Source: Rhodococcus sp. CH91 (GTDB lineage Bacteria > Actinomycetota > Actinomycetes > Mycobacteriales > Mycobacteriaceae). From it: a DNA stretch of 64,000 nucleotides. The notes under the pieces are model-generated. The model was not told where the DNA came from and ran no database searches. It worked only from the letters and a program-made list of their open reading frames with translations. Below, piece by piece: positions 8,105 to 45,680 of this stretch. The stretch covers positions 62,001 to 126,000 of the forward strand of contig NZ_JAKFYR010000009.1 of NCBI RefSeq assembly GCF_022554085.1, written 5' to 3'. Both the position numbers and the translations under genes were made by a program. Numbering within the stretch: the first letter of the stretch is position 1; each line of letters opens with the position of its first letter.

Positions 8105-8964
8105 GCGAGATCCTCGTGGTCGTGGTGGACGCCTTCCCCGGGACGCAGTCCGCCCGCGCTGCCGAGCGCGTCGATGGCGTCGCCGGTGCCGACGACCACG
8201 AGTCGTCCGCGCATCTCGAGTACTTCGACCTCGGTGCGGTAGAGCTCCGAGAGCACCTTCGAGGTCATCACCTCGGAGGGAGAACCGACACGGAACTGCC
8301 CGTCGACGAGGTAGAGCACGCGATCGACCAGCGGCAGGATCGGGTTGATCTCGTGGGTGACGAACAGGACGGAGGTGTCGTGGTCGCGTCGCCGCCGGTC
8401 GATGAGCGACGACACGAGGTGCTGGTTGGCCAGATCGAGACTCAGCAGAGGTTCGTCGCACAGGAGCACGCGGGGATCTCCCACGAGCGCCTGAGCGATA
8501 CGCAGGCGCTGTTGCTCGCCCCCGGAGAGACTTCCGATCGGGGCGCCGGCGAAGGCCTGCGCGCCGACCTGCGCGATCGCATCGTCCACCGCGACGCGCC
8601 GGCGTCTGCGGGTACGCACGCCGGTTCCCCAGAGGTGACCGTCCATGCCGAGCCCCACGAGATCGCGTCCCCGCAGCGGCACGGCCTCGTCGAGGGACTT
8701 CTGCTGCGGTACGTAACCGACGTAGGAGTTCCCGGCACGGACGGACTGCCCGGCGATCGTCACCGTGCCCGAGGTGAGGGGGAGCTGACCGAGCAAGACC
8801 TTGAGCAGTGACGTCTTACCGGCACCGTTGGGGCCGAGCACCGCCAGGAACTCGCCGGGCTCGACGGTGAGGTCGAGCCCGTCCCAGAGCACACGCTCAC
8901 CGAATGCCAGTCGTGCGTCGCGGAGTTCGACCGTGGGGGTGCGGTCGGAGGGAGGAGGAGTCAC
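8101..8964 (-). CDS. znuC: Zinc/manganese ABC transporter ATP-binding protein (ZnuC family)
   Basis: ABC ATPase of 287 aa. Walker A GPNGAGKTS near residue 45, Q-loop VPQQKS, signature LSGGEQQRLRIAQAL, Walker B VLLCDEP and switch His in VTHEIN are all intact. The GTG at 8964 (reading VTPPPSDRTP) is preferred because it follows a GGT/GAC spacer and gives the normal family N-terminus; the frame upstream runs into the znuA coding region. Middle gene of znuA-znuC-znuB, overlapping znuB by 4 nt. A C-terminal extension ending in HHDHED is His/Asp-rich and could bind metal. Confidence 0.88.
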   Translation of the reverse strand: MTPPPSDRTPTVELRDARLAFGERVLWDGLDLTVEPGEFLAVLGPNGAGKTSLLKVLLGQLPLTSGTVTIAGQSVRAGNSYVGYVPQQKSLDEAVPLRGRDLVGLGMDGHLWGTGVRTRRRRRVAVDDAIAQVGAQAFAGAPIGSLSGGEQQRLRIAQALVGDPRVLLCDEPLLSLDLANQHLVSSLIDRRRRDHDTSVLFVTHEINPILPLVDRVLYLVDGQFRVGSPSEVMTSKVLSELYRTEVEVLEMRGRLVVVGTGDAIDALGSAGGLRPGEGVHHDHEDLA

Positions 8965-14706: not shown

Positions 14707-14720
14707 TAGAACACGTTCTA
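14707..14720. promoter_or_regulatory. KstR operator between kstR and fadE34
   Basis: Perfect palindrome TAGAACACGTTCTA, matching the known KstR consensus (inverted GAAC/GTTC half sites with a 2-nt centre). It is 42 nt from the kstR start and 33 nt from the fadE34 start, so it can repress both directions. Confidence 0.93.
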
Positions 14721-38173: not shown

Positions 38174-39076
38174 TCAGGAACGGGGGGTGTCGCCGCCGTC
38201 GTCCTCCGTTGCCTCCTCGTAGTACTCGGTCGTCACCACGCGCCGGACGAGTCGCGGCTTGCGTGGCCGCTGCGCGTCCGCGCCGCCCGAACCGGTGGTG
38301 TCGTCTCCGGCGGTCGGCGTGCCACCTGCCGGCGACGGGGAATGTGCGGGGCCGGTCGGGCCCGGTCCGACGATCTCCTGGTCGGATCCCGTGTCCGCGG
38401 CCGAGTGCCGGGGAGTGCCGCCGGCCGGGTCACCGGGGCCCGGGGATATCGAGCCGGTTCCGCCCGGCACGGAGTGGCCGAGCGGAGCGTCCCGCTGCCC
38501 TTCGCTCGGCCGGTAGTCGCCGGCGATCTCCTCGCGGGCGAAGTCCGCGGTGGGGGCGTGCGACTGTCCTGCCGCAGGCGGTGCGGGGGGTGTGTGCGGC
38601 TGTCCTGCGGTGGGGGCGTGCGACTGCCCTGCGGTGGGGGCGTGCGACTGTCCTGCGGTGGGCGGTGTGGGGGTTCCGTACGTCTCGCCGGTGTGCGGTG
38701 CGCCGGTGTCCCTGCCGGTATCGCCACCGGCCGGGCCGCTCCTGCCGGCCGCACCCCCGGTGTCGCCGGCTCGCCGGTAGTAGCGATACAGTTCGTCCTC
38801 TTCGAGCGGGGTGAGCTCGCCGTTCTCGTCGATGTTCGGGGCGCCGGTGATGGTGTCCTTGTCGTACGGCAGGCGTACGCCCGAGCTGTCGAGCTCGGCC
38901 TCGTCGATGGGAGCGAAGTGCCGGCGCGTCCCGAACAGACCCGTGACGACGGTGATCCATGCGGGCCGGCCCGTGTCGTTGTCCAGGTACACCTCTCCGA
39001 CGCGGCCGAGCTTGTCGCCGTCGGGGCCGTATGCGGTGGCGCGCGAGAGGGTGTCGATGTCGTCGTTGCTGATCAT
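38174..39076 (-). CDS. PRC-barrel protein with repetitive Pro/Gly-rich tail
   Basis: Protein of 300 aa. The first about 110 residues are a PRC-barrel (DTLSRATAYGPDGDKLGRVGEVYLDNDTGRPAWITVVTGLFGTRRHFAPIDEA) followed by ENGELTPLEEDELYRYYRR. Residues about 110-280 are low-complexity, rich in Gly, Pro, Ala, Thr, with an 8-residue repeat AGQSHAPT encoded by 24-bp DNA repeats. The end is basic then acidic (RKPRLVRRVVTTEYYEEATEDD). PRC-barrel proteins of this kind are common in actinobacteria as stress-related or RNA/surface-associated proteins of unknown role. Confidence 0.8.
   Translation of the reverse strand: MISNDDIDTLSRATAYGPDGDKLGRVGEVYLDNDTGRPAWITVVTGLFGTRRHFAPIDEAELDSSGVRLPYDKDTITGAPNIDENGELTPLEEDELYRYYRRAGDTGGAAGRSGPAGGDTGRDTGAPHTGETYGTPTPPTAGQSHAPTAGQSHAPTAGQPHTPPAPPAAGQSHAPTADFAREEIAGDYRPSEGQRDAPLGHSVPGGTGSISPGPGDPAGGTPRHSAADTGSDQEIVGPGPTGPAHSPSPAGGTPTAGDDTTGSGGADAQRPRKPRLVRRVVTTEYYEEATEDDGGDTPRS
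38549..38656. repeat. 24-bp coding repeats in the PRC-barrel gene
   Basis: Near-identical 24-bp units at 38609-38632 and 38633-38656, a degenerate unit immediately before them (38585-38608) and one separate copy at 38549-38572. Each encodes AGQ-(S/P)-H-(A/T)-P-(T/P). Likely prone to copy-number change. Confidence 0.85.
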
Positions 39077-39193: not shown

Positions 39194-39205
39194 ATTGTCA
39201 ACAAT
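39194..39205. promoter_or_regulatory. Putative GntR operator upstream of the aminotransferase gene
   Basis: ATTGTCAACAAT (ATTGT and ACAAT arms, CA centre), 51 nt before the aminotransferase ATG. The same 12-mer recurs exactly at 43461, in the other promoter region of this island, whose last gene encodes a GntR/FCD regulator. Confidence 0.72.
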
Positions 39206-39256
39206 CCGACAACAGGTCGCGGGATTCGCGTCTCCCGGCCGTGCGGAAGGACCGTC

Positions 39257-40498
39257 ATGACCGGACTGTCGCCCCGCCTGGTGCAGGCCACGCCCGTCAC
39301 CGTCGAACACGCCGAGGGGTGCTACGTCCACGGCACGGACGGCCGCCGCTATCTCGACTTCACCGCAGGTATCGGCGTGACGAGCACCGGTCACTGTCAT
39401 CCTCACGTCGTCGAGGCGGCCCGCCGGCAGGTCGGCTCGCTCATTCACGGGCAGTACACGACGGTGATGCACCTGCCCCTGCTCGAACTCACCGAGCGGC
39501 TCGGTGCCGTGCTGCCCGAAGGGCTGGACTCGTTGTTCTTCGCCAACTCGGGCAGCGAGGCCGTCGAAGCAGCACTGAGGCTGGTGCGTCAGGCGACCGG
39601 GCGTCCGAACGTCGTCGTCTTCCACGGGGGGTTCCACGGCCGTACCGTCGCCGCAGCCACCATGACCACCTCGGGAACCCGCTTCTCCGCGGGTTTCTCG
39701 CCGCTGATGGGTGGTGTGCACATCGCGCCTTTCCCCACTGCCTACCGCTATGGCTGGTCGGAGGACGAGGCGACCGATTTCGCACTGCGCGAACTGGATT
39801 ATCTGTTCGCGACCGTCTCGGCACCCGGGGAGACCGCGGCCTTCGTCGTCGAACCGGTGCTGGGCGAGGGCGGTTACGTGCCCGGGAACGCGCGATTCTT
39901 CCAGGGCCTGCGGCAGCGGGCCGACGAGCACGGCATCCTGCTCGTCTTCGACGAGATTCAGACGGGCTTCGGTCGAACCGGAAAGTTCTTCGGCCACCAG
40001 CACTTCGGAGTGAGCCCTGATGTCATCACCATCGCCAAGGGGCTCGCGAGCGGGTTTCCACTGTCGGGTATCGCCGCCTCGGAGGAACTCATGGCCCGTG
40101 CCTGGACCGGCTCGCAGGGCGGAACGTACGGAGCCAACGCGGTCTCGTGTGCGGCGGCGGTGGCCACACTCGACGTGATCGAGAAGGAAGGACTCGTCCA
40201 CAATGCAGCGGTGCGCGGACGCGAACTGCTCGCGGGTGCGCGCGAACAGGCGACCGACGCCGTCGGGGATGTCCGGGGGCTCGGTCTCATGGTAGGTGTC
40301 GAGTTCACCACCGACGGTGCGCCCGACCGGGACCGGGCGACGGCGGCGCAACAACTCGCAGCACGAAAAGGTCTGCTGTTGCTGACATGTGGCGCGTTCA
40401 TGAACGTTGTGAGGATGATCCCGCCGTTGATCGTCACCGCACGGCAGGTCGAGGACGCACTCGGGATCTGGTCCGAGGTTCTCGCCGAGATCTCGTAG
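39257..40498 (+). CDS. Class III PLP-dependent aminotransferase
   Basis: Aminotransferase of 413 aa of the 4-aminobutyrate/ornithine class. Recognisable: FTAGIGVTSTGHCHPHVVEAARRQ, FANSGSEAVEAALRLVRQATGRPNVVVFHGGFHGRT (PLP phosphate and ring contacts), LVFDEIQTGFGRTGKFF (PLP Asp) and TIAKGLASGFPLSG with the Schiff-base Lys. ATG at 39257. It lies 18 nt before the DUF3830 gene and begins the rightward part of the uncharacterised island. The amino donor could be beta-alanine, GABA or an amino-acid product of the amidase; sequence does not decide. Confidence 0.85.
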   Translation: MTGLSPRLVQATPVTVEHAEGCYVHGTDGRRYLDFTAGIGVTSTGHCHPHVVEAARRQVGSLIHGQYTTVMHLPLLELTERLGAVLPEGLDSLFFANSGSEAVEAALRLVRQATGRPNVVVFHGGFHGRTVAAATMTTSGTRFSAGFSPLMGGVHIAPFPTAYRYGWSEDEATDFALRELDYLFATVSAPGETAAFVVEPVLGEGGYVPGNARFFQGLRQRADEHGILLVFDEIQTGFGRTGKFFGHQHFGVSPDVITIAKGLASGFPLSGIAASEELMARAWTGSQGGTYGANAVSCAAAVATLDVIEKEGLVHNAAVRGRELLAGAREQATDAVGDVRGLGLMVGVEFTTDGAPDRDRATAAQQLAARKGLLLLTCGAFMNVVRMIPPLIVTARQVEDALGIWSEVLAEIS

Positions 40499-40516
40499 AC
40501 GCAAACAGGAGGGTGC

Positions 40517-41011
40517 ATGGCCCGCTACATCACGATCGGCCTCGACAAGCGCGGCGTCACCTGCCGCGCGCGACTTCTCGACTCCGATGCTCCGCTCACC
40601 TGTGAAGCGGTGTGGAACGCGCTGCCGCAGAGCGGTTCTGCCTTCCACGCCAAGTACGCCCGCAACGAGCTGTACACGCTGGTGCCGCGGATCACCGCGG
40701 CACCGCATCGGGAGAATCCGACGGTGACCCCGATTCCCGGCGACGTATGCCTGTTCGACTTCGAGGCCTGGGAGATCGGTAATCCCGCATACGGTTACGA
40801 ACCCGGTTCCGCGGCTCATGCCGCACAGGGGGCGACCGATCTCGCGTTGTTCTACGGGCGGAACAACCTACTGCTCAACGGTGATGTGGGCTGGGTTCCG
40901 GGGAACGTCTTCGCGACGATCGAGGACGGTCTGGCCGAACTCGCCGTCGCATGCAACGACCTCTGGATCCAGGGCGTGGTCGGGGAGACCCTGAGCTTCG
41001 CTCGCGCATAG
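40517..41011 (+). CDS. DUF3830 family protein (cyclophilin-like fold)
   Basis: Protein of 164 aa matching DUF3830: ARYITIGLDKRGVTCRARLLDSDAPLTCEAVWNALPQSG at the start and PGDVCLFDFEAWEIGNPAYGY and NLLLNGDVGWVPGNVFATIEDGL later. The family is predicted to have a cyclophilin-like beta-barrel and recurs beside racemase/amidase genes, but no activity is established. Excellent ribosome site AGGAGG 4 nt upstream of the ATG. Co-transcribed with the aminotransferase and convergent with the amidase. Confidence 0.83.
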   Translation: MARYITIGLDKRGVTCRARLLDSDAPLTCEAVWNALPQSGSAFHAKYARNELYTLVPRITAAPHRENPTVTPIPGDVCLFDFEAWEIGNPAYGYEPGSAAHAAQGATDLALFYGRNNLLLNGDVGWVPGNVFATIEDGLAELAVACNDLWIQGVVGETLSFARA

Positions 41012-41053
41012 GTGCGGTTCGCACTCGTTGGACTCGGTGCGGTCCGCACGCGT

Positions 41054-42424
41054 TCAACTCAGTGCGTACTCGGCGAATCTCGCCACGGCGAGCAGCAGGT
41101 CGTCGGAATGCCGCGGCCCGATGATCTGCAGACCCACCGGCAGTCCCGCCGAGGTGGTCCCCACGGGGATGCTGATGGCGGGTTGCTGCGTGAGATTGAA
41201 GGGATACGTGAACGGCGTCCACTGGGGCCACGAGGTGGCCGTCGAACCCGGGGGCACATCGTGGCCGGCCTCGAAGGCGGGAATCGGCACCGTCGGCGTG
41301 AGCAGCACGTTGTATCTCTGATGGAAGATCCCCATCGTGATGCCGATCGACGCGGCGACCGCACGCGCTTCGAGGTAGTCGACGGCTCCGAGGCGTTCAC
41401 CGTGCGCCCACACGTGTCCCAGTCCCGGGTCCACCTTGTCGCGTGCTCCCTCGGGAAAGGACTTCAACATCGTGGCAGCGCCTGCCGCCCACAGGTTCTC
41501 GAACGCCTCGAGTGGGTCGTCGAAGCCCGGGTCGGCTGTGGTCACCCGGAGCCCGGCCTCGTCGAGGATTCCGACCGCACGGTCGACGATCGCGCCGACC
41601 TCCCGGTCCACGCGCACGTAACCGAGGTCCTTCGAATAGGCGACGTCCATCCCCACCACTTCACGATTGAGGCCGCCGCGGAAGGTCGCGAGCGGCGGCG
41701 CCAGCGCGGTGGGGTCGCGGGGGTCGGGCAGAGCGAGGATGTCGGTGAGCAGCGCCGCGTCCTCGACGGTTCGCGTGATCGGTCCGGCATGCGCGAGCGG
41801 GCCGAACGGGCTGGCCGGGAAGATCGGGATCCGGCCGTGGGTCGGTTTGAAGCCGACGACACCGCAGAAGGCGGCGGGGATACGGATGCTCCCTCCGCCG
41901 TCCGTACCCACCGAGCAGGGGCCGAAGCCGGCTGCGACGGCCGCGGCACTGCCCCCGGAGGATCCGCCGGCCGTTTTCGTCGGGTCTGCGGGATTGGTGG
42001 TGATGCCGTGCAGTGCCGAATCCGTCACCGCCTTCCAGGCGATCTCGGGAGTGGCGGTCTTGCCCACCAACACCATTCCGTCCTCGCGCAGGCGGGCGGC
42101 CACCGGGCTGTCGACATTCCAGTCCTGGTCCTCGTCGACCGCTTGCGAACCGCGAAGGGTGGGCCATCCGTCGGTGAGGAAGACGTCCTTCACCGAGATC
42201 GGCACTCCGTCGAGGAGTCCTTTCGAATATCCTGTCCGCCAGCGGTGTTCTGATGCACGGGCCTGGTCCACTGCCTTCTCCTCGTCCACGAGGCAGAAGG
42301 CATTGATCTCGCGGTCGTGCTGCGTGATCCGTTCGAGCACGGCTTTCGTCGCCTCGACGGGGGACAGTTCACCGGAGGAGTACGCCGACACGAGTTCGAC
42401 GGCGGTCATGTCTGTGGGCTCCAT
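41054..42424 (-). CDS. Amidase signature family hydrolase
   Basis: Amidase of 456 aa with the Ser-cisSer-Lys triad: Lys in LDGVPISVKDVFLTDGWPT (near residue 80), the Gly/Ser block TAGGSSGGSAAAVAAGFGPCSVGTDGGGSIRIPAAFCG with cis-Ser and nucleophile Ser (about 155-190). No signal peptide. AAGGAGG lies upstream of the ATG at 42424. Second gene of a leftward pair with the hydroxyacid dehydrogenase. Likely hydrolyses a small amide in the same pathway as the adjacent maleate-isomerase-like proteins, for example a maleamate-type intermediate; this is inference. Confidence 0.87.
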   Translation of the reverse strand: MEPTDMTAVELVSAYSSGELSPVEATKAVLERITQHDREINAFCLVDEEKAVDQARASEHRWRTGYSKGLLDGVPISVKDVFLTDGWPTLRGSQAVDEDQDWNVDSPVAARLREDGMVLVGKTATPEIAWKAVTDSALHGITTNPADPTKTAGGSSGGSAAAVAAGFGPCSVGTDGGGSIRIPAAFCGVVGFKPTHGRIPIFPASPFGPLAHAGPITRTVEDAALLTDILALPDPRDPTALAPPLATFRGGLNREVVGMDVAYSKDLGYVRVDREVGAIVDRAVGILDEAGLRVTTADPGFDDPLEAFENLWAAGAATMLKSFPEGARDKVDPGLGHVWAHGERLGAVDYLEARAVAASIGITMGIFHQRYNVLLTPTVPIPAFEAGHDVPPGSTATSWPQWTPFTYPFNLTQQPAISIPVGTTSAGLPVGLQIIGPRHSDDLLLAVARFAEYALS

Positions 42425-42458
42425 CGGGGGCCTCCTTGTCGTCGGGCGCTGTCGACCC

Positions 42459-43433
42459 TCACGCGCCGGGCACGTAACCCAGTTTCTTGTCCACCACGTT
42501 CCGTAACGGTTCGCCGGCGAGCCGACGGGCGAAGTTGTCGGCGAAGACGTCCACCAGGGCATCGCGCCACCCGACGACATCACCCGAATTGTGAGGGGTG
42601 ATGACGACGTTCGGCATGTCCCAGAGTGGATGGTCGTCGGGGAGTGGTTCGATGTCGAGTACGTCGAGCGCGGCGCCGGCGAGGGTACCGGAGCGTAATG
42701 CCTCGACGAGGTCGTCGGTGCGCACGAGCTCGCCGCGTCCGACGTTGACGAATCGCGCTCCGGGCTTCATGGCGGCGAACAGCCGCGCGTCGAAGAGGTA
42801 GCGGGTCTGCTCGGTGAGAGGTGCGGCGACCACGACGAAATCGGCATCGGCCAGCGCGGCCGGAAGATCGGAGGTCGCGGTGACGATCCCGAAGTCGGGG
42901 TCGTCGTGGCGGGGCCGCCGGCCCGATCCGCGGACGCGCATGCCCACCGCGCCGAGCAGCCGGGCGACGGCGCGGCCGATCGGGCCCGTGCCCACGACCA
43001 GCGCGGAGCGACCGGCGATCCGTTCCGACTCCCGATGCTTCCAGATGTGACCGTCTTGCAGTCGCAACGATTCGGGGATGTCCTTGGCGAAGGAGAGTAT
43101 CTGGGCCAGAACGTATTCGGCGATCGCGCCGTCGAAGACGCCGCGCGAGTTGGTGACCACGACGTCGCTGTCGCGCAGGGCGGGGAACATCAGGGCGTCG
43201 ACTCCCGCCGCGGCGACGTGGATCCATTCGAGGGAGCGGGCCGCGTGCCACGCGTCCGGTAGGGCGTCGGACAGGAAATCGTAGGCGAACAACACCTCGG
43301 CACCGTCGAGCGCGGCTGCCAGCCCGGCGCGGTCGGTGTAACGGACGGTGGCGTGTTCGGCTACCGGAGCCATCCGGGCCCGATCGGGCACCGCTTCGGC
43401 ATGAAGCACTGCCACGACCGGTTTCGCGTTCAC
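42459..43433 (-). CDS. D-isomer-specific 2-hydroxyacid dehydrogenase
   Basis: NAD(P)-dependent dehydrogenase of 324 aa. The Rossmann motif is VVGTGPIGRAVARLLGAVGMRVRGSGRR (about 143-170); active-site Arg lies in VNVGRGELVRTDDL, Glu in LDVLDIEPLPDDHPLW, and His in VVITPHNSGDV. Resembles glyoxylate/hydroxypyruvate reductases (GhrA-like). GTG at 43433; frame upstream is open but unlike the family. It diverges from the first racemase-like gene, with the ATTGTCAACAAT site between them. Confidence 0.84.
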   Translation of the reverse strand: MNAKPVVAVLHAEAVPDRARMAPVAEHATVRYTDRAGLAAALDGAEVLFAYDFLSDALPDAWHAARSLEWIHVAAAGVDALMFPALRDSDVVVTNSRGVFDGAIAEYVLAQILSFAKDIPESLRLQDGHIWKHRESERIAGRSALVVGTGPIGRAVARLLGAVGMRVRGSGRRPRHDDPDFGIVTATSDLPAALADADFVVVAAPLTEQTRYLFDARLFAAMKPGARFVNVGRGELVRTDDLVEALRSGTLAGAALDVLDIEPLPDDHPLWDMPNVVITPHNSGDVVGWRDALVDVFADNFARRLAGEPLRNVVDKKLGYVPGA

Positions 43434-43460
43434 GTTGACACCGTATGGGTGCCTCGTATT

Positions 43461-43472
43461 ATTGTCAACAAT
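43461..43472. promoter_or_regulatory. Putative GntR operator between dehydrogenase and racemase genes
   Basis: ATTGTCAACAAT, identical to the site at 39194, lying 27 nt from the dehydrogenase GTG and 39 nt from the racemase-like ATG in the divergent promoter region. Confidence 0.74.
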
Positions 43473-43511
43473 CTTCAAGGCTGGGGACCTGCGACGGAGC
43501 CGAGGGGCCGT

Positions 43512-44252
43512 ATGGAACTGAACATCCCCGAATTCGAGGGGCCCCTGGCACAGCGGGGGATAGGGGTGATCGCACCGTTCGATCTCGCACTCGAACGCGA
43601 GTTGTGGCGGTGGACGCCGCTCGAGGTGAGCCTGCATCTTGCGCGCACGCCGTACGAACCGGTGCCGGTCAGCAGGGCCATGGCGGAACTCGTGTCCGAA
43701 CGGCGTCACCTCATGACCGCGACCCGCGACGTTCTGCATGTGGAGCCGGAAGTCGTTGCCTATCTTTGCACTTCGGGGAGTTTCATCAAGGGGATCGACT
43801 ACGAGCGCACGCTGTGCGAGGCGATCTGTGAGGCCGGTGCGGCCTGTGCGGTGACGACCTCCGGGGCGTTGCTCGAAGCGTTGCGTCACCTGGAGATCAC
43901 CACGATCTCGGTGATCACCCCGTACGACGCCGAATTGACCTCGTTGCTGCACGAGTTCCTGCGTCAGGCAGGCGTCGGAACTGCTCGCTCCATGCATCTG
44001 GGTCTGGGCGGCGGTATCTGGAAGGTGAACTACCGGACCATCGTCGAACACATCATGGCGGCCGATACTCCCGAGTCCGAGGCGATCTTCGTCAGTTGCA
44101 CCAACTTGCCGACCTACGACGTGATCGCCCCGCTCGAGCGCGAACTGGGCAAGCCGGTGCTCACGGCCAACCAGTTGACCATCTGGGCGTGTCTCGGACG
44201 GATGAAACTGCCGATGAGCGGACCGGGCCGATGGCTGAGGGGAGTCTTCTGA
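43512..44252 (+). CDS. Maleate isomerase / Asp-Glu racemase-like protein 1
   Basis: Asp/Glu racemase superfamily protein of 246 aa with both catalytic-type cysteines: Cys86 in VVAYLCTSGSFIKG and Cys196 in AIFVSCTNLPTYD, a spacing typical of maleate cis-trans isomerase and arylmalonate decarboxylase relatives. RGIGVIAPFDLALERELW at the start and LGKPVLTANQLTIWACL at the end are family-like. ATG at 43512. Its stop overlaps the start of a second, divergent paralogue (TGATG), suggesting a heteromeric enzyme or two successive isomerisations. Confidence 0.8.
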   Translation: MELNIPEFEGPLAQRGIGVIAPFDLALERELWRWTPLEVSLHLARTPYEPVPVSRAMAELVSERRHLMTATRDVLHVEPEVVAYLCTSGSFIKGIDYERTLCEAICEAGAACAVTTSGALLEALRHLEITTISVITPYDAELTSLLHEFLRQAGVGTARSMHLGLGGGIWKVNYRTIVEHIMAADTPESEAIFVSCTNLPTYDVIAPLERELGKPVLTANQLTIWACLGRMKLPMSGPGRWLRGVF

Positions 44253-44998
44253 TGCAGCGTGAGCAACGTCCTGTCACCGTGGGGATCGTGTATCCGGATC
44301 ACGCCGCCGAGGACGACTATCCCTACGCCGCAGATCTGCTCGGCGTCGCTCTGCCCGTCGCGCACATCTACGGCACCGATCTGCATGCGGTGCCCGAACT
44401 TCTCGATCTCGGCAGTCCGGCGAGACTGGCCGGCGGTGTGGCGCAGTTGGCGGGGCGGAACCTCGACGCGCTGGTCTGGGCCTGCACCTCCGGCAGTTTC
44501 GTGTACGGACCGGAGGGTGCACGTCTGCAGGTCGAACAACTCGCGCGTGCCGCCGGAGATGTTCCCACGACCAGCACCGGCATCGCCTTCACCGAGGCCC
44601 TCCGTGCTCTCGGGCTCTCCCGGGTCGCGGTCGCGGCGAGCTATCCGCGCGATGTCGCCGAACTGTTCGTCGCCTTTCTCGCGGCGGGCGGGACGGAGGT
44701 GGTGTCGCTCGCCGACGCCGGGATCGACACGGCCGCCGAGGTGGGAACGTTGCCGGAGGATGCCGTGATCGAGTTCGTGGCGTGCAACGATCGTCCCGAT
44801 GCCGAGGCGCTCGTGGTGCCCGACACCGCGATGCACACACTGCGCATCCTCCCCGAGCTCGAGAAGAGGATCGGCAAACCGGTGCTGACCGCCAATCAGG
44901 TCACGGTCTGGCACGGGCTGCAGTGCGCCGGATATACAGTGATATGCCCGGATCTGGGCTCGCTGTTCGAGGAGGATGCCGATCATGGTGCTCGGTGA
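44252..44998 (+). CDS. Maleate isomerase / Asp-Glu racemase-like protein 2
   Basis: Second Asp/Glu racemase superfamily protein, 248 aa. First Cys78 is in LVWACTSGSFVYG; the second, Cys178, sits in FVACNDRPDAEALVVPDT instead of the usual SCTNL context, so its chemistry may differ from the upstream paralogue. The C-terminal RIGKPVLTANQVTVWHGLQ repeats the family motif. Starts with ATG inside the upstream stop codon, preceded by GAGGGGAG. Its 3' end overlaps the start region of the GntR gene. Confidence 0.8.
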   Translation: MQREQRPVTVGIVYPDHAAEDDYPYAADLLGVALPVAHIYGTDLHAVPELLDLGSPARLAGGVAQLAGRNLDALVWACTSGSFVYGPEGARLQVEQLARAAGDVPTTSTGIAFTEALRALGLSRVAVAASYPRDVAELFVAFLAAGGTEVVSLADAGIDTAAEVGTLPEDAVIEFVACNDRPDAEALVVPDTAMHTLRILPELEKRIGKPVLTANQVTVWHGLQCAGYTVICPDLGSLFEEDADHGAR

Positions 44999-45680
44999 TC
45001 TGGGAGATCTACGTCCTGTCACCCGGCCGTCCACGGCCGAGCTCATCGCCGAGCAGATCAGGTCGGCGATCGTCCGGGGCGCACTCGCGCCCGGAGCGCA
45101 ACTGGGAGAAGCCGAGCTCGCGGCACACTTCGAGGTGTCGCGCGGACCGCTGCGAGAAGCCATGCAGCGGTTGTTGTCCGAGGGGCTGCTCTACAGCATT
45201 CGCAACCGCGGGATCTTCGTCACCGAGCTCACCTTCGACGACGTCGTCGACATCTACCGCAGCCGCCGGGTGATCGAGGGTGGCGCACTCGAACTCGTCC
45301 TCGACGGACGTCGTGAGTGCACCTGGCAGGAACTCGGGTCCGCCGTCGACGAGATGCGCGACGCGGCGCAGCGCGGTGATGCTGCCGGAGTCTCGGACGG
45401 CGACCAGCGGTTCCACGAGATTCTCGTGGAGAGTGCGGCGAGTCCCCGCCTCGTGCGCGCCGCACGCACCCTGCTCGTCGAGACGAGGATGTGCCTCGGT
45501 GCGTTGCAGACGACCTATCCGGATCTGCACGTGCAGGTCGACGAGCACGTGGTGTTGCGGGAGGCGATCCGTTCCGCCGAGCCCGACCGTGTGCGGCGAC
45601 TGCTCGACGAGCACCTGCACGACACGGTGGACCGGCTGCGCGGGTATCAGGACGCCGACGGAGTGATCGCGTCGCGGTGA
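44985..45680 (+). CDS. GntR/FCD-family transcriptional regulator
   Basis: Regulator of 231 aa. The winged helix (RPSTAELIAEQIRSAIVRGALAPGAQLGEAELAAHFEVSRGPLREAMQRLLSEGLLYSIRNRGIFV, about 12-80) is followed by an all-helical FCD effector domain with metal-ligand-like residues (DQRFHEILVESA, DEHVVLREAI, LDEHLHD). FCD regulators sense small organic acids. The ATG at 44985 has GAGGAGG 9 nt upstream; an ATG at 44976 overlaps it. Last gene of the island; presumed to bind the two ATTGTCAACAAT sites. Its 3' end overlaps the convergent TetR gene. Confidence 0.87.
   Translation: MVLGDLGDLRPVTRPSTAELIAEQIRSAIVRGALAPGAQLGEAELAAHFEVSRGPLREAMQRLLSEGLLYSIRNRGIFVTELTFDDVVDIYRSRRVIEGGALELVLDGRRECTWQELGSAVDEMRDAAQRGDAAGVSDGDQRFHEILVESAASPRLVRAARTLLVETRMCLGALQTTYPDLHVQVDEHVVLREAIRSAEPDRVRRLLDEHLHDTVDRLRGYQDADGVIASR

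Follow-up and report, generated by a model that had tools for sequence, protein, structure and literature searches.

A conserved GntR/FCD-linked gene island with DUF3830 and a EutA-like protein pair in Rhodococcus sp. CH91 is a candidate regulon for ectoine-type catabolism

The closest described systems to the locus analyzed here are the ectoine catabolic clusters of the eut and doe types. Gram-positive clusters of this kind, Actinomycetota included, have been found by searches with EutD and EutB (accessible part of PMC13188858), a doeBDAC cluster is mentioned in the actinobacterium Tsukamurella (accessible part of PMC7192451), and the hydroxyacid dehydrogenase gene hdhD, of undefined role, is listed among the canonical ectoine-cluster genes (accessible part of PMC5924519). 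We analyzed a window of 64,000 nucleotides from Rhodococcus sp. CH91 (contig NZ_JAKFYR010000009.1, positions 62,001 to 126,000 of the forward strand), in which seven genes and two copies of a 12-base-pair (bp) sequence form an island at window positions 39194–45680. From its sequence, this island is almost certainly a real and conserved self-regulated catabolic regulon under GntR control. It probably serves, a prediction we make with modest confidence, the breakdown of ectoine and/or 5-hydroxyectoine, or of a very close cyclic amidine osmolyte, and would do so independently of the ectoine hydrolase EutD/DoeA and the deacetylase EutE/DoeB.

Profile searches of the window placed all seven genes where the initial annotation had put them, and in the families it had named (start codons were chosen in this analysis). 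The first encodes a class III aminotransferase (AT; 39257–40498, plus strand; PF00202, E 7.9e-116), whose nearest NCBIfam subfamily is PRK08117 at 462 bits, under the cut-off of 574, and which shares 32% identity with the corresponding enzyme of a Rhizobium ectoine cluster; this reference cluster was taken from the plasmid records matched by RAC2, described below. It is followed by a DUF3830 protein of 164 residues with an invariant HAKYARNE block (40517–41011, plus strand; PF12903, E 3e-60, 202.8 bits against a gathering score of 26). On the minus strand lie an amidase-signature hydrolase (41054–42424; PF01425), which passes the NCBIfam equivalog PRK06169 (740 bits against 506), and an NAD-dependent D-2-hydroxyacid dehydrogenase family protein with a GTG start (42459–43433; PF02826), for which no NCBIfam equivalog cut-off was reached. 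Two plus-strand genes then encode proteins of the EutA/AMDase/maleate-isomerase superfamily, labeled RAC1 (43512–44252, Cys/Cys type) and RAC2 (44252–44998, Cys/Asp type), which match PF17645 at 84.6 and 77.3 bits, respectively (gathering score 25.9). The last gene (44985–45680, plus strand) encodes a GntR/FCD regulator with a GntR helix-turn-helix (PF00392, 63.2 bits, gathering score 27) and an FCD domain (PF07729, 73.8 bits, gathering score 24.3).

The whole genome (labeled G000; 4,890,499 bases in 39 contigs) holds two copies of the 12-mer ATTGTCAACAAT, both in the island. The first (39194–39205) is positioned 51 bp ahead of AT and the second (43461–43472) within the 78-bp gap between the dehydrogenase and RAC1, 27 bp from the dehydrogenase start and 39 bp from that of RAC1. 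The initial annotation had reported the same 12-mer at both promoter regions and had held that its being common elsewhere would speak against a regulatory unit; both sites were confirmed, and the genome-wide search returned no others. The relaxed palindrome ATTGTNNACAAT also occurs genome-wide at these two places and nowhere else, against about 0.27 occurrences expected from the window's base composition, and the control pattern, read backwards, has none in this genome. A sigma-70-like promoter reading towards RAC1 (TTGACA-16-TATTAT, 43435–43462, plus strand; 11 of 12 matches, one found and 0.4 expected in shuffles) is overlapped at the end of its −10 hexamer by the second operator copy, a place where a repressor could sit. 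The GntR/FCD protein is likely to be that repressor, predicted to act on the island and on its own gene.

The genes and the operator are conserved together. DUF3830 relatives were confirmed at at least 571 places in a scan of named genomes, from which 80 named loci were kept (Rhodococcus, Nocardia, Hoyosella, Janibacter, Georgenia and Amycolatopsis). AT and DUF3830 are present in all 80, the amidase and the dehydrogenase in 68 each, RAC1 in 66, RAC2 in 64 and GntR in 63, and all seven genes occur together in 63. Among the 17 loci without at least one gene, 11 coincide with the end of a contig or stretch, and six (L047, L054, L055, L058, L068 and L081) are not explained in this way. The palindrome ATTGTNNACAAT stands ahead of AT in all 79 loci where the sequence there is readable, including L047, where the AT match is fragmented; L079, with only two upstream bases, was unreadable. 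The gap between the dehydrogenase and RAC1 has the exact ATTGTNNACAAT in 58 of 66 loci and CTTGTCAACAAT in the remaining eight, and a site with at most one mismatch in all 66. The AT match is in three pieces in both L010 and L047 (one or two Rhodococcus records), through gene decay or assembly error.

Wider searches gave the same association. A search of 101 relatives found DUF3830 in 23, one match being weak (G077, E 1e-4, 27% identity; left out of the carrier counts). Genome-wide, the form ATTGTYRACAAT has two to six copies in all 21 DUF3830-positive relatives searched and is absent from all five DUF3830-negative congeners, and its backward control gave no occurrence in 25 of the 26 genomes and one in G091. 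In a class sample, long DUF3830 was found in 54 of 394 genomes, and the islands of 49 were examined (G552, G603, G643, G682 and G721 were left out). Operator sites are present in 18 of 18 islands of family f98, and neither the GntR gene nor the site was found in the 20 islands of genus g60 (14.5–20 kb fetched for each), in one of which (L204) an IclR protein was confirmed. It is this co-variation of gene and site that links the GntR protein to the palindrome, which it is predicted to bind. The proposal of a GntR-linked catabolic unit, its genes co-conserved with the 12-mer, has therefore held in the search of related genomes (80 named loci and 101 relatives).

An ectoine-type substrate, which gene linkage and co-occurrence make the best supported of the readings considered and somewhat more likely than not, is suggested by the EhuABCD importer. 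All four EhuABCD-type genes are present in 20 of 20 g60 islands of the class sample (17 by tblastn against the L205 set, the other three with EhuB over its cut-off), with the binding-protein gene 0.7–4.2 kb from DUF3830; the carrier genomes are 5.8–11 Mb, Streptomyces-like in size. The L205 importer passes four NCBIfam equivalog cut-offs (EhuB 270 bits against 191, EhuC 229 against 197, EhuD 267 against 205 and EhuA 355 against 345), and its binding protein has as nearest solved structure 2q88 (193 bits, versus 79 for the next), the ectoine-binding EhuB of Sinorhizobium (accessible part of PMC5924519). The same EhuB is just 37% identical to that of Rhizobium. This would suit a regulon for a different cyclic amide or amidine (e.g. 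hydantoin- or pyrimidine-derived acids) taken up by a diverged EhuABCD, with DUF3830 as a general C–N hydrolase partner, as would the short-class DUF3830 found beside M20 and cyclic-amidohydrolase genes in L219. We consider that alternative improbable, given that in the single set tested each of the four transporter subunits scores above its ectoine equivalog cut-off, and given the EutD-like gene behind an operator in genome G108.

In G108, the operator itself connects the importer with the island genes. One locus (L244) consists of GntR, RAC1, RAC2, a RidA-like gene and ehuBCDA, and another (L202) of the dehydrogenase, a EutD-like hydrolase, an M20 hydrolase, DUF3830 and AT. The palindrome ATTGTNNACAAT is found ahead of ehuB, RAC2, the dehydrogenase and the EutD-like hydrolase, between RAC1 and the RidA-like gene, and between DUF3830 and AT, two of the G108 sites having centers other than YR. 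The EutD-like hydrolase scores 416 bits against a cut-off of 613 and is 44% identical to Rhizobium DoeA. Two short contigs of G302 carry AT, EhuA-/EhuD-like genes, and EhuB with a RAC1-like gene. G196 (L207) has operators ahead of a gene for a ProP-like transporter (453 bits, under the cut-off of 544) and of a DoeA-like gene that matches more weakly (220 bits to DoeA_2, against a cut-off of 575). ProP-like genes adjoin three further islands (L270, L290 and L291), and in Escherichia coli ProP is listed as importing ectoine (accessible part of PMC5924519).

Co-occurrence points in the same direction. In the window's genus, EhuB was found in 12 of 13 DUF3830-positive genomes (11 over the cut-off; one of the 12 is a partial match in a 75%-complete genome) and in none of five negative ones (Fisher 0.0007, uncorrected for kinship). 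Across a phylum sample of 296 genomes, EhuB passes its cut-off in 24, namely 11 of the 15 with long DUF3830 (E below 1e-50) versus 13 of the 281 others (Fisher 9e-11, uncorrected for kinship). An ehuBCDA set is also present in the window's genome (G000:C12:232-3343), unlinked to the island; its EhuC, EhuD and EhuA are 45, 51 and 68% identical, respectively, to those of the L205 set.

The initial annotation had found that no complete known pathway fits the island, and this is supported: in the window's genome, EutD/DoeA gave no match at E ≤ 1e-30 and EutE/DoeB none at E ≤ 1e-10. Across 40 genomes, EutD/DoeA matches were obtained in three (G108, G196 and G064) and EutE/DoeB matches in two (G302 and G323), none of them over the cut-off. 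EutB and EutC had no match in the 40 stretches L252–L291 (tblastn, E ≤ 1e-12), the window's whole genome not having been searched for them, and the curated EutA cut-off of 318 bits is reached by neither RAC1 (95 bits) nor RAC2 (109 bits). Canonical-looking clusters of ehuBCDA with eutB and eutD are present at L299, L301 and L302 (family f30), with eutC matched in L299 and L301, and no ATTGTNNACAAT site was found at these three loci. Since eutB/eutD clusters beside ehu exist there too, the phylum appears, from these sequences, to hold two kinds of ehu-linked clusters. A GntR/FCD gene was confirmed beside L299, and one in L301 was named by reading.

The two EutA-like proteins differ in their active-site positions. 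All 90 RAC1 sequences have Cys at both positions that correspond to the EutA cysteines, and among 89 RAC2 sequences the first position is Cys in 87 and the second is Asp in every one; these residue counts, like the 101-locus neighbor counts given below, are partly redundant because the handle-derived and named loci overlap in part (e.g. L029/L046). In five further RAC2 sequences (g60, L292–L296) the second position is Asp or Gly. The Cys/Asp set of RAC2 differs from that of the Cys/Cys isomerases of PF17645, and the arylmalonate decarboxylase of the same family is Gly/Cys. The conserved pairing of a Cys/Cys protein with a Cys/Asp one suggests that the two catalyze consecutive steps or form a mixed complex. 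RAC2 matches 441 plasmid records, and the 40 of these listed are at most 36.5% identical and mostly labeled EutA.

These residues bear on the route that the initial annotation had thought simplest, from an amide through a cis-dicarboxylate such as maleate to fumarate via the racemase-like proteins, with transamination. RAC1 would suit it, since it keeps both cysteines and matches the maleate isomerases 4fq7 (E 4e-14) and 2xec (E 1e-13). Asp at the second cysteine position of RAC2, however, makes a pair of maleate isomerases unlikely, EutA is the best-fitting NCBIfam model for both proteins (with no maleate isomerase model among the hits to set against it), and the importers encoded within or next to the island belong to the ectoine or osmolyte type. 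On account of the RAC2 residues and the importers the route has lost its support, and we regard it as very improbable.

The DUF3830 protein has as its closest solved structure 3kop_A (E 1.8e-64), a member of the same family that carries in the PDB just the name 'Uncharacterized protein'. The HAKYARNE block is invariant in 11 of 11 long-class sequences, and His44 and Glu66 are shared by all eight members that were aligned (three long, five short). A role in C–N bond hydrolysis, alone or together with a hydrolase, would fit this protein. No match to DUF3830 was found among plasmid records. A shorter DUF3830 class occurs at L213–L221, where it lies near a branched-chain-type permease in L213 and beside an M20 peptidase, a cyclic amidohydrolase and an IclR regulator in L219.

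Beyond the seven genes, among 101 loci, 70 have a succinate-semialdehyde dehydrogenase (SSADH)-like gene as a neighbor and 51 have one of the tartrate-dehydrogenase type, one of the latter passing TIGR02089 when tested (491 bits against 470). The SSADH-like gene is divergent from AT across the operator in most of 20 mapped loci, and that of the relative L029 is 47% identical to the SSADH of the Rhizobium ectoine cluster. Neither gene type was found in the clusters of open reading frames of the window; the best aldehyde-dehydrogenase homologues in its genome are 59% identical and located elsewhere. The operator also occurs away from the main island: in L161, L162, L163 and L169 it stands ahead of a YdiJ-like FAD 2-hydroxyacid dehydrogenase (below its cut-off), and in L165 ahead of a transporter that is MHS-type by reading. 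Divergent from AT in the window is a gene (38174–39076, minus strand) that resembles a PRC-barrel protein by reading and has no NCBIfam match; in other genera this position is frequently taken by a semialdehyde dehydrogenase sharing the operator. In G040 (L166, around 5999), an exact operator lies between PIG-L-deacetylase-like and amidohydrolase-like genes, named by reading, and may mark a further regulon member.

Frequent SSADH-like and tartrate-dehydrogenase-type neighbors, and YdiJ-like genes behind operators, would be expected if the regulon degraded another osmolyte or a gamma-amino or gamma-hydroxy acid (4-amino-3-hydroxybutyrate, carnitine-derived compounds or a lactam). The amidase would then free an amino acid, AT and SSADH would convert it to a hydroxy-dicarboxylate such as D-malate, and the D-2-hydroxyacid and tartrate/D-malate-type dehydrogenases would finish the route. 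Among solved structures AT is nearest to gamma-aminobutyrate-type transaminases, and ProP-type carriers take many osmolytes. Such a pathway nevertheless fails to account for the recurring linkage to EhuABCD, for the operator-preceded EutD-like gene of G108 and for the EutA-like pair, and we judge it unlikely. Nicotinate/maleamate, pantothenate (amidase, beta-alanine transaminase and dimethylmalate-type dehydrogenase), nylon-oligomer/caprolactam and glutarate hydroxylase routes, considered from family knowledge, are ranked low.

A number of observations weigh against an ectoine-type substrate. Tartrate-dehydrogenase-like and YdiJ-like genes have no place in the published ectoine route, as given in the accessible parts of the sources cited here. 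In the window's genome EhuB is barely over its cut-off (207 bits against 191) and the ehu locus has no operator, and all 12 genomes of the genus that have both ehu and the island carry the two unlinked. EhuB over its cut-off is missing from nine of 35 DUF3830-positive genomes (two of them 74–75% complete, one of these with a partial match), and 13 genomes of the phylum sample have EhuB without long DUF3830. Of their 13 ehu loci, five showed no RAC2 and no eut genes, and three have eutB/eutD. In the other five (L292–L296, g60) ehuBCDA lies beside RAC2 with no DUF3830 or amidase, the dehydrogenase being present in four. One or both catalytic residues of RAC2 are lost in all five, so RAC2 can persist beside ehu for another reason. 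On the regulatory side, the g60 islands are without AT, GntR and operator, L208 has a GntR homologue (50%) and no site, and L270 has a site and no GntR gene, these exceptions being judged within the fetched island stretches. Taken with the linkage data, the substrate, which the initial annotation could fairly describe as open, is now narrowed towards the ectoine type.

In the proposed ectoine route, the GntR/FCD protein would sit on ATTGTYRACAAT over the promoters and be released when an acid or amino-acid intermediate binds. Ectoine would be taken up by EhuABCD, encoded elsewhere in the genome (G000:C12), and its ring opened and acetyl group removed by DUF3830 and/or the amidase. The class III aminotransferase would convert the resulting 2,4-diaminobutyrate-type product to a semialdehyde, which an SSADH-like enzyme, part of the island in many relatives and unlinked in the window's genome, would oxidize to the level of aspartate. 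RAC1, RAC2 and the D-2-hydroxyacid dehydrogenase would handle the extra hydroxyl of 5-hydroxyectoine, replacing EutABC. This order, and the role given to each single enzyme, are offered tentatively and are rather unlikely to hold in full. More broadly, it is possible, if somewhat doubtful, that actinobacteria from Rhodococcus and Nocardia to their large-genome soil relatives break down ectoine and 5-hydroxyectoine by a second pathway that needs neither EutD nor EutE. In it, DUF3830 would be a new amidine-ring opener or an obligate amidase partner, and the Cys/Cys and Cys/Asp EutA-like pair with the D-2-hydroxyacid dehydrogenase would stand in for EutABC.

The island is flanked on the left by hsaA, hsaD, hsaC and hsaB, each over its NCBIfam cut-off, and the initial annotation had placed it inside a sterol locus. 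Exact KstR-type sites, scanned with what we take to be the KstR motif, lie at 14707, 16927, 32725 and 34400 (0.05 expected), all to the left of the island among sterol genes, and the window scan with this motif found none inside it. The KstR2-type pattern gave just one-mismatch matches in the window, at 8792, 34233 and 54522, outside the island. Co-regulation with the sterol genes was rejected on these grounds. Nocardia loci (L066, L070 and L080 among them) have ribF and/or polynucleotide phosphorylase on the upstream side in place of the hsa genes. Because these genes replace the sterol genes in Nocardia and the KstR-type sites fall outside, the sterol surroundings are incidental, a matter of local gene order, and from its sequence the island is not a sterol gene set. 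The link to sterols thus falls away, and with it the suspicion that the island belongs to sterol degradation.

In the literature searched, the word DUF3830 was not found, and nothing joined ectoine catabolism with an amidase, Streptomyces and a hydroxyacid dehydrogenase. A search on ectoine degradation in Rhodococcus gave no title on ectoine breakdown among the matches listed, and matches to the combination of maleate isomerase and amidase were unrelated by title. Our impression, as far as searches on DUF3830, ectoine catabolism, EhuABCD and maleate isomerase go, is that the cluster is not in print. If the proposed route were true, DUF3830 would gain a function, a common bacterial osmolyte would have a second breakdown route, and ectoine use by soil actinobacteria without ectoine hydrolase would be explained. 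The regulon is widespread, as the spread of DUF3830 relatives indicates, and whether it is an ectoine regulon becomes testable.

Compared with the canonical clusters (ehuABCD-eutABCDE-ssd-atf and doeABCD), the island gene set is similar in its linkage to EhuABCD in relatives, in its pairing of a class III aminotransferase with an SSADH-like dehydrogenase, and in combining EutA-superfamily proteins with a GntR-superfamily regulator. The clusters of PMC13188858, which are of the same eutB/eutD kind as L299, L301 and L302, also have EhuABCD among their transporters and include a putative amidohydrolase (abgB); the accessible part of that source reports no EnuR homologue in Bacillota and mentions neither DUF3830 nor a 2-hydroxyacid dehydrogenase gene. 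Unlike the canonical regulator EnuR, which is MocR-type, the island regulator is of the FCD type. The island further differs from the eut and doe clusters in having DUF3830, an amidase and a second EutA-like protein of the Cys/Asp type, in a genome without EutD or EutE matches.

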